Shown here: piece by piece, positions 8,835-41,752 of the stretch
Position numbering within the stretch: position 1 is the stretch's first letter
Layout of the letters: the number at the start of each line of letters is the position of its first letter
Assembly: GCA_021734505.1 (NCBI GenBank)
Contig: JAIPIT010000006.1
Coordinates: 1 to 49,262 of the forward strand
Direction: 5' to 3'
Origin: Fidelibacterota bacterium
Lineage (GTDB): Bacteria > Fidelibacterota > Fidelibacteria > Fidelibacterales > Fidelibacteraceae
Length of the DNA stretch: 49,262 nt
Notes under the pieces: generated by a model
Database searches by the model: none
The model's input: only the letters and a program-made list of their open reading frames with translations
What the model was told of the DNA's origin: nothing
Position numbers and translations under genes: made by a program

Positions 8835-8852
8835 ATATTAGACTCCTTTAAA

Positions 8853-8918
8853 ACTTACTAAACGGAAGGTAAGTAACAAAGTTCCCGAAGTCAAGAAAAA
8901 AACTTACCGAGCGGTAAG
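8853..8918. promoter_or_regulatory. Putative TetR operators upstream of the efflux operon
   Basis: CTTACCG-AG-CGGTAAG (8903-8918, 7-bp perfect arms) and ACTTAC-N10-GTAAGT (8853-8874) immediately upstream of tetR. Confidence 0.7.
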
Positions 8919-9540
8919 CGGCGCCGATGGCGCCGAAATATTAAAGATAAAAGGCAAAAGATTAAAGAAAGATTTAAGAATGCTCGCGGGTCATCCTGAA
9001 CTTGCTCGTCATGGCGAATCCGCCAGTCCCGCAGGGACTCCTATGGAGCCGGCGGAGTAGCATGGATTCAGGATCGGAGTAATTGGAATTCTCGAATAAT
9101 GAAATGATTTATATTACGTTTAATGTTCAACCCCTCCCATCTACGCCAAGGCTTCGATGCGCAGGCGGCAAACTCGGGGTTGATATGAAAAGTCGATAAT
9201 ATTATTATATTCTTGAACCCCTAACGGGGTTCTATTTTAAAGGGAAAGTACTAGCTATATTCTTCTTGAACCCTTGCAGGGTTCTATTCACTAAAAAAAC
9301 ATGCTTATGGATAAAAAGAAAAGGATCCCGCAGGGATCCAAGAAGAATATAGCCAAGAATCAAAAACCAAAACAACTCCGTAGGAGTTGAAGAAATTATA
9401 CTTCGATTATTTAAATGTCTTCTCTTCAATGCTTTGTCGTGCTATAAAATGAGACCCCGGAAAAATTTCTATGATATTTTTCCGGGATGACAATATATAT
9501 ATTGTTAATCTGGAGACGCGATAAATCGCGTTTTTACATC

Positions 9541-10164
9541 TTATTCGGAAAGTTTTTTCTGAAAACTTTCCACAAATTTTGCAATGTGTTTTCCATCCAT
9601 CAAGGCATGGTGTGCGTGCACAGCAAGAGGCATGGTCTTTTTACCGTTTTCTTCGGTCATTTTTCCGAAGGTCAGAATGGGAATACCTTCCGTGGTGGGA
9701 AGGTCTAGCGGATGTTTTACCGAGGTGAACGTGATCCAGGGCATAATGGAGTAGTAGATGGTTTCGGGACAATCTTTTGAGGTGTCAAGATCAGGATAAG
9801 CCCTTACCCGTTCGATCTCTTTTTCTGCGTTGATCAAAAATGTCTTAAAAGCGGTATTGTATTCCAGCATGGCATAACCCAGTTCACCGTCATCGCGCAT
9901 GATGGTAGGGGAGCCGTTGACCGTATCGTAGATAACCGGTTTGCCATCTTTTATGCGACATCTGAATTCGGGGATCTCGTTGGCGGCTTGCAGTGATAAA
10001 TAAAAATAATACAGGAAAAATGATACGCCCAATTCTTTTGCACGAACATATGCTTCCGTGCAGTCAATATGTGTTGTGATACCAAAATAGGGATCACTGT
10101 ATTGAACGAAATGTTTGAAAGCCGAAGCGCGTGGCCAAGTTTTTAGATCGATAGACTGTTTCAT
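9541..10164 (-). CDS. Chloramphenicol O-acetyltransferase family (CatA-like)
   Basis: 207 aa; 'EFRCRIKDGKPVIYD', 'SIMPWITFTSVKHP', active-site 'HAHHALMDGKHIAKF' (CAT HHxxxDG). Confidence 0.88.
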   Translation of the reverse strand: MKQSIDLKTWPRASAFKHFVQYSDPYFGITTHIDCTEAYVRAKELGVSFFLYYFYLSLQAANEIPEFRCRIKDGKPVIYDTVNGSPTIMRDDGELGYAMLEYNTAFKTFLINAEKEIERVRAYPDLDTSKDCPETIYYSIMPWITFTSVKHPLDLPTTEGIPILTFGKMTEENGKKTMPLAVHAHHALMDGKHIAKFVESFQKKLSE

Positions 10165-14316: not shown

Positions 14317-14469
14317 TGTGTTTATAATTCTACCTGCAGACTTCCAATCTTCTCCGCCGGCTGGCGGATTCGCCTCGGGGGAACGGATTTTCCCAGATTA
14401 ATACTTTATAACACAATCTATGTTAATCTGCGTAATCCGTGGATGTCTTTATCTATTGTATTTCATTAT

Positions 14470-19197: not shown

Positions 19198-19238
19198 CTG
19201 GTGACTGGTAACTAGAGACCGGTAAAACTTAAATGTAG

Positions 19239-19258
19239 GGAACAGGCATGCCTGTTCC
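19239..19258. repeat. Palindrome GGAACAGGCATGCCTGTTCC (copy 1), possible terminator between convergent genes
   Basis: Perfect 20-bp palindrome followed by TTTTTT; identical core at 39669-39688. Confidence 0.85.
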
Positions 19259-19385
19259 TTTTTTATATACGACAATAATTATTGTGTTGGAGTTCGGAGA
19301 CGAAGAGACGTAAAACAAAAGGACGTATTGCAATACGCCACTACTATCATCTTTATCCTGTTATCCTGTCAGGAAAAAAATCCCG

Positions 19386-34311: not shown

Positions 34312-34911
34312 ATGCAAAAACAGCAAATAAAAAATATTATATTTGATCTCGGCAATATTCTGGTAGATGTGGATTATAAACGATTTACTGATGCCATGGA
34401 CTGGGATTATGATAAGTTCATGAGTTTTTTCAACTCGGAATTTTTTAGAGAATTTGAGATAGGGAAGCATTCTGAGGAAATGTTCTTTGTTGAGTTGAAC
34501 AAGCATATGCCGTTAAAAGAAGGTGATGAACAACGATATCGCGATAATATACATAAAACCTTTTCTCTTCGCCCGCGAACGTGGGCAAAAGTGCATTGGT
34601 TGAAAAAACATTATAAGATCATTCTTTTTTCCAATACTAATTCTTTGGATTATAATGCACTTGATAAAATCATTGATCTAAAACGCGTGATCAGATCTTC
34701 ATATGTATCACACGCTCAAGGTTATATTAAACCGGATCCTCGTTCATATCAATGTTTGGTTGAACTTTTCAATATCGAACCAGCAGAAAGCCTTTTTGTC
34801 GATGATCTAAAAGAAAATATAGACGGTGCCAAAAAGGCCGGATGGAATGCGGAGTTGATTGATTCCGAAGCGAGATTATTTGAAGTGTTGGAGAAATACC
34901 AAATCAATTGA
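34312..34911 (+). CDS. HAD-IA family hydrolase
   Basis: 'IKNIIFDLGNILVDVDYKRF', 'IILFSNTNSLDYNAL', 'KPDPRSYQCLVELFNIEPAESLFVDDLKENIDGAKKAGW'. Confidence 0.93.
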   Translation: MQKQQIKNIIFDLGNILVDVDYKRFTDAMDWDYDKFMSFFNSEFFREFEIGKHSEEMFFVELNKHMPLKEGDEQRYRDNIHKTFSLRPRTWAKVHWLKKHYKIILFSNTNSLDYNALDKIIDLKRVIRSSYVSHAQGYIKPDPRSYQCLVELFNIEPAESLFVDDLKENIDGAKKAGWNAELIDSEARLFEVLEKYQIN

Positions 34912-34937
34912 TCCTCCTTCGCTTAAGCTTCGGAGGA
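34912..34937. repeat. Family D palindrome (CCTTCGCTAAAGCTWCGG type)
   Basis: TCCTCC-TTC-GCTTAAGC-TTC-GGAGGA, directly after the HAD stop codon. Confidence 0.8.
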
Positions 34938-39663: not shown

Positions 39664-39693
39664 AATACGGAACAGGCATGCCTGTTCCGTATT
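39664..39693. repeat. Palindrome AATACGGAACAGGCATGCCTGTTCCGTATT (copy 2)
   Basis: 30-nt perfect palindrome; 20-bp core identical to 19239-19258. Confidence 0.9.
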
Positions 39694-39720
39694 TATTTTA
39701 ATAATAATATTATTAACGGA

Positions 39721-41305: not shown

Positions 41306-41480
41306 TTAAATGCATGGTTCAAAATAAGTTAATCTTAAGAAAAAAACAAGAAAAAAAGAGTGAAAAATAAAAGAATTTAATGGTAGGTATATCATTTAGC
41401 TTTGTTGTTAAAAAATTACAGAACAAAGTTAATAAGCCCATAGGGGGGTGTTTCTTTATATTGGGGGGTGATAATAATTT

Positions 41481-41752
41481 CCCGTCTTCGCTAAAGCTAC
41501 GGAAACATGAATGATATGTAAGAATCAAAGATCCTCCTTCGCCAAGGCTACGGAGGCAAGTGTTATTTTTTTACGCTTTTATAATAGTAATTACCCGCCT
41601 TCGCTAAAGCTACGACGGGTATTATTTGAAAAATGAAACATTTTTCAAATAATAAAAAAACTTGCGGCTATTTGATGAACCCGTTTTACACGGTGGGTGC
41701 CTGCCGCTGGATTCAATCTTCCTTAACCCGCCGTAGCCTTGGCGAAGGTGGG
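41481..41752. repeat. Cluster of four family D palindromes between dnaA and the 6S-like RNA (the last one inside the RNA)
   Basis: CCCGTCTTCGCTAAAGCTACGGAAAC (41481), CCTCCTTCGCCAAGGCTACGGAGG (41533-41556), ACCCGCCTTCGCTAAAGCTACGACGGGT (41593-41620), CCCGCCGTAGCCTTGGCGAAGGTGGG (41727-41752). Confidence 0.85.
41620..41654. repeat. Perfect 16-bp-arm inverted repeat, 3-nt loop
   Basis: TATTATTTGAAAAATG-AAA-CATTTTTCAAATAATA. Confidence 0.9.

Follow-up and report, generated by a model that had tools for sequence, protein, structure and literature searches.

A 22-bp double hairpin at the centre of nested intergenic palindromes in a draft bacterial genome

An occupied palindrome and its empty copies

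The intergenic site at positions 9013-9057 raises the question of how one palindrome came to lie exactly at the centre of another. The window, i.e. the whole stretch of DNA analysed here, comprises 49,262 bp and is one contig of a 1.98-Mb draft genome (G000) that is 78% complete. The site reads GGCGAATCCGCCAG, TCCCGCAGGGACTCCTATGGAG and CCGGCGGAG in succession. When the 22 bp at 9027-9048 are taken out, the remaining 23 bp are the exact reverse complement of 14352-14374, a match of joined flanks whose chance in a 49-kb window is estimated at about 1e-9. The sequence-only reading had given this sequence with its coordinates and pointed to the exact empty site, and all of these were confirmed. 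The inserted unit, named C, consists of two abutting hairpins of 11 bp, in which 4-bp stems close 3-nt loops. Its host, B, is enclosed by a third palindrome, A (8990-9075), and the site is thus triple-nested. Our best explanation, held with moderate confidence, is that C is a non-autonomous double-hairpin element of very small size that entered the pre-existing intergenic palindrome B, itself lying within A, at the dyad axis and without removing any target bases.

Table 1. Features of the nested palindromes in the window and the basis of each assignment.
Feature	Position	Strand	Basis
Element C, 22-bp double hairpin TCCCGCAGGGA CTCCTATGGAG	9027-9048	+	Two abutting perfect 4-3-4 hairpins; 3 other genome copies; removal restores empty B
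C hairpin 1, TCCC-GCA-GGGA, GNA-type triloop on the + strand	9027-9037	+	Sequence; loop 1 statistics (135 fetched copies)
C hairpin 2, CTCC-TAT-GGAG, loop ATA on the other strand	9038-9048	+	Sequence; loop 2 mostly R-N-A on the other strand
Host palindrome B, left arm GGCGAATCCGCCAG	9013-9026	+	Exact match to empty copy 14352-14374
Host palindrome B, right arm CCGGCGGAG	9049-9057	+	Exact match to empty copy 14352-14374
Outer palindrome A, left arm GTCATCCTGAACTTG; A encloses B	8990-9004	+	A without B in G003 and, as a variant, at G000:C88; G000:C93 has A+B but no C
Outer palindrome A, right arm ATTCAGGATC	9066-9075	+	Same as for the left arm of A
Empty copy of B	14352-14374	-	Exact reverse complement of 9013-9026 plus 9049-9057

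A total of four copies of C were found in this genome, two of them inside B, one at the axis of another palindrome and one in a loop-like site. The sequence-only reading had made its case depend on further B copies carrying an insert. A second occupied B is present on contig C84, where the whole 45-mer of the window recurs with 3 mismatches (C84:9068) and C itself (C84:9080) lies inside B, at the same base as in the window. The copy at C56:1556, AGTCTCGCAGGGACTCCTATGGAG, sits at the exact axis of CTGTCAG^CTGACGG, within the imperfect outer palindrome GTCATCTTGAGCG...TCAAAAGATC, and the copy at C74:12857 lies within a loop of 11 nt that is closed by a short GACC/GGTC stem. The same-base insert on C84 and the axis insertion on C56 support the earlier proposal that a double-hairpin element sits in the middle of a palindrome family distinct from it. 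Two of the 11 B copies in this genome are occupied and at least nine are empty, seven of these at C36:2716, C72:53399, C86:52504, C93:3899, C100:14353 (in the window), C113:3828 and C113:6617, with further ones on C17 and C65 that differ by one mismatch. Such genome-wide counts come from pattern searches and fetched stretches; the material consists of draft genomes, mostly MAGs, and some sets were ascertained by the very motif searched for.

The sister species contain many more empty B copies and two occupied ones, G007:C112 and G001:C34, which may not be orthologous. In G007 the target, ATCCGCCAG^CCGGCGGA, is identical to that of the window and is occupied by a related double hairpin of 22 bp that points the other way, whereas G001 has a decayed 21-bp version in a CCGG^CTGG variant of B. 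These sites bear on the junctions. AG had been noticed at both ends of the insert and taken as the mark of a 20-bp insert with a 2-bp target duplication. The dinucleotide is indeed present at both junctions in 4/4 copies of this genome (CAG before the unit, GGAG at its end and C after it). At the G007 site, however, CCAG is followed by CTCCAAAGGAGTCCCTGTGGGA and then by CCGG, without a repeated dinucleotide; the identical target received a 22-bp unit that ends in GGGA directly before CCGG, and thus nothing was duplicated there. Moreover, the junctions of the hosts in G060, a genome from a distant genus, show chance repeats of 0-1 nt. The AG duplication was rejected on these two grounds, and C is better read as a blunt 22-bp insert (2 x 11), which fits all intact cases.

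The same sites speak to an alternative history, in which C entered B once, recombination or duplication then dispersed the two together, and the remaining cases are unrelated. The window and C84 copies would agree with this, since both consist of the B core with C inserted in one and the same direction. However, the C56 and C74 copies lie in other host sequences, the identical G007 target is occupied in the opposite orientation, and B copies without C are common. A single insertion is already disfavoured by C56 and G007, and we regard it as very unlikely.

Nesting and hairpin tips as targets

The successive stages of the composite can each be found separately. A alone is present in G003 (L050, GTCATCCTGAACTTGTTTCAGGATC) and as a variant on C88 of this genome (L017), A with B and without C is found on C93 (L131) and, with shorter B cores, at two sites on C113 and one on C72, and A, B and C stand together in the window. 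Furthermore, on C86 (L134) the two arms of a further palindrome, GGAACAGGC^ATGCCTGTTCC, flank B; this palindrome has no insert at window positions 19236-19266 and 39666-39696, where it appears as GGAACAGGCATGCCTGTTCC. Because the three stages exist separately and B is also nested on C86, palindrome nesting is general in this genome. If the 22-bp unit moves, such nesting would represent a concrete route for the growth of complex intergenic palindromes.

Another palindrome family, CCTCCTTCGCTAAAGCTACGGAGG, is present in the window at 34910-34936, 41471-41618 and 41728-41751. A related palindrome occurs at G001:C25:7309 and G007:C65:3759, and its centre holds a hairpin of the GTCCC-NNN-GGG type.

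The composite of the window lies in a TetR-CAT-like intergenic region (8835-9541), into which several hairpin families are packed. Here the region measures 706 bp, against 164-392 bp in the five sister species in which it could be delimited, and none of these five has A, B or C in the orthologous region. The composite therefore either arrived in this lineage or was kept only by it. The sister regions were rejected as a within-locus empty site: the whole composite is missing from them, so that they do not isolate the C step, and they show lineage-specificity instead.

This distribution also weighs on a functional reading, in which the nested hairpins are maintained as a three-way-junction RNA acting, for example, at transcript ends or in mRNA stability. 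The intergenic position would suit such a role, and the folds of L130 and L189 show an outer stem with two hairpins and have strongly negative z-scores, -3.8 and -8.0 (DNA parameters). Against it stand the absence of the A/B/C composite from this intergenic region in the sister species, the alternative fold predicted for the window copy, the lack of any Rfam family above the cut-off, and the variety of contexts, which favours insertion. We consider a maintained RNA highly improbable. Weak Rfam matches to plant microRNAs were taken as chance hits to A/T-rich hairpins.

Palindrome tips are occupied in other genomes as well. G060 and G172 are two close species of a distant genus in the same phylum, with orthologous stretches mostly ~92-98% identical. 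Six copies of the palindrome GTGCCACGCACTT-NNN-AAGTGCGTGGCAC in these genomes are empty, and six others carry a double hairpin in the tip (four of them in G060 and two in G172, of which one is near-intact and the other decayed). One orthologous pair differs in occupancy: G060:C65:46108 is empty, and G172:C51:14013 has a decayed 18-bp insert, with flanks ~94% identical; precise loss may explain this pair as an alternative to gain. Another orthologous place (G060:C38 and G172:C119) is occupied in both species. Most copies are common to both at orthologous places, and present-day movement in these species is therefore rare. At G060:C6:49491 a 22-bp double hairpin was found inside the triloop of another, and once it is excised the remainder is identical to the sequence at C6:58824. 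The loops of 10- and 11-bp stems hold the unit in MAGs titled Ignavibacteria and Ignavibacteriales (L039, L044).

Outer stems with a score of at least 8 surround 8 of the 135 copies, versus 0.1 expected from shuffled flanks or 0.33 from displaced positions, and about five of the eight remain once copies found via host arms are left out. In the cross-phylum set, 14 of 16 copies are without a recognisable palindrome host. Outside this genus the majority of copies lie elsewhere than in palindromes, and hairpin tips are therefore a preference rather than a rule, i.e. a favoured but not obligatory site. At L167 (G039:C26:7672) the double hairpin interrupts the repeat GTCATTGCGAGGAG...GACGAAG^CAATC in an arm and not in the loop.

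Double hairpins beyond the genus and their possible origin

In G060 and G172 the second hairpin alone, CTCCNNNGGAGGA, was found in 42 and 40 copies, versus 0 and 2 for a reversed control pattern. It is usually directly preceded by another 4-3-4 hairpin, the stem of which varies among copies (GTCCC/GGGAC, GACCC/GGGTC, GCTCC/GGAGC and GTTCC/GGAAC). Abutting 4-3-4 hairpins number 70 in 403 kb and 0 in shuffled sequence, and every other spacing from 1 to 15 gives 0-7; these 403 kb were partly chosen for such motifs, and the contrast between spacings counts more than the absolute number. Of the 135 fetched copies, 100 have A as the last base of the first loop and 118 have G or A as its first base, so that this loop is mostly R-N-A. 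The second is mostly R-N-A when read on the opposite strand, and each strand therefore carries one GNA/ANA-type triloop hairpin. A core of NCCC-RNA-GGGN-CTCC-TNY-GGAG recurs across phyla. Two adjacent hairpins are thus dispersed as one short repeat, in the sense in which double-hairpin elements were named in fungal mitochondria.

These data allow an origin in situ to be weighed, in which template switching during replication at a hairpin tip makes additional hairpins and no element moves. Hairpin tips are hot spots of replication error, and an inverted duplication of an 11-mer would yield the double-hairpin structure. The stems are perfectly paired though their sequences differ widely among copies, which speaks for such an origin. 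The orthologous double-hairpin clusters L161 (G060:C22) and L218 (G172:C181) differ by a deletion between two copies, which also fits it and shows that double hairpins act as recombination points as well. Three observations run counter to an in situ origin, namely the near-identical 22-mer in three different hosts in this genome, the core shared across phyla, and the length fixed at 22 bp with zero spacing. We judge it quite unlikely.

If C moves, a transposase may be sought. The genome encodes four Y1_Tnp (RAYT/IS200-like) proteins, with several in most sister species, and C could be a REP-like element moved by these HUH enzymes. HUH enzymes act on single-stranded DNA hairpins, and REP elements inside palindromes have already been described (PMC3733652). 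In this genus the RAYT genes are flanked by single-hairpin REP-like repeats (e.g. GATCCCGAAGGGATCC and CAACCCCTTCGGGGTTG), and similar single hairpins are present at window positions 9205-9390. However, the C copies have neither a GTAG nor a CGTC tag, and the sole GTAG near B is 3' of the hairpin on that strand, the wrong side compared with GTAG-REPs. A double hairpin was found in one of the 24 loci around Y1_Tnp genes, and G100, a genome 95% complete, has one double-hairpin copy and no Y1_Tnp match. On the basis of the 24 loci and G100, a RAYT mechanism for C is possible but unsupported. RAYT was rejected as a demonstrated mover, the Y1_Tnp genes not being flanked by double hairpins, and C as a REP-like RAYT substrate seems to us unlikely. 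Around the Y1_Tnp genes, the loci covered with regard to a MITE or other IS-derived origin, no IS ends related to C were seen.

The hairpins at 9205-9390 are GAACCCCTAACGGGGTTC, GAACCCTTGCAGGGTTC, GGATCCCGCAGGGATCC and AACTCCGTAGGAGTT, two of which share a CTATATTCTTCTT-type flank. In sister species, RAYT genes have hairpins of the same kind beside them (e.g. L115 and L120).

At the level of sequence, the exact empty site, the repeated axis and loop insertions, the two orientations at one target, and the same architecture, built from other stem sequences, in other genera and phyla are established. The evidence for movement comes mainly from exact paralogous empty sites, together with the one orthologous pair with a decayed insert. 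We conclude that the double hairpin is a recurring and probably mobile element rather than an accident, and its copies appear to have spread by movement in trans. For insertion into B, the most likely step would be that the host palindrome extrudes a hairpin, either on single-stranded (lagging-strand) DNA or as a cruciform. The extruded tip might then be nicked or opened by a candidate nuclease of the HUH or SbcCD type, after which a copy of the double hairpin, single-stranded and folded, could be joined into the opened tip.

A broader reading, which we offer tentatively and at somewhat less than an even chance, is that such units constitute an undescribed class of bacterial mobile DNA, 22 bp long and present in several phyla. 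It would be defined by architecture and not by sequence, i.e. by two abutting hairpins with 4-bp stems and R-N-A triloops, one stable per strand. The class would prefer extruded hairpin tips, build nested palindromes, and owe its mobility to a host or transposon enzyme. If the unit does move, it would be among the smallest mobile DNA units known. The pairs of occupied and empty hairpins would then provide a testable system for the opening and joining of hairpin tips in bacterial chromosomes.

Comparison with known systems

The nearest analogues of C in form are the mitochondrial double-hairpin elements of Allomyces and the yeast GC clusters, which are very short GC-rich insertions of double or single hairpins whose mobility was judged from presence and absence (PMC4478555). 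They belong to organelle genomes and have no known sequence relation to C. A target duplication is reported for them, the yeast GC clusters being flanked by AG or ACT direct repeats (PMC4478555), whereas for C a short duplication of this type is unsupported given G007 and the G060 hosts.

Among bacterial repeats of similar size are the very small mobile repeated elements of cyanobacteria (Elhai et al. 2008, as cited in PMC2884548). According to the citing description, on which this comparison is based, they resemble C as ~20-bp dispersed repeats that are possibly mobile. No description of a bacterial 22-bp unit of two triloop hairpins was found in the literature searched, which did not take in the work of Elhai and colleagues, and any claim of novelty is therefore a cautious one.

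REP elements inserted within target palindromes were described by Di Nocera and colleagues for GTAG-15 of A. variabilis, GTAG-23 of T. roseum, for which hundreds of target palindromes were also found, and CGTC-1 of H. neapolitanus (PMC3733652). They share with C the position of a short palindromic repeat inside another palindrome. Those REPs have GTAG or CGTC tags and longer stems, whereas C is untagged, consists of exactly two 4-3-4 hairpins and occupies several unrelated host palindromes. REPs inside palindromes are thus known, and the double hairpin C may, with due caution, be called a new variant. Palindromic repeats are favoured targets also of IS1397, IS621 and ISKpn1, whose insertion sites are REP palindromes (PMC1525189); unlike C, these are full insertion sequences that encode a transposase.
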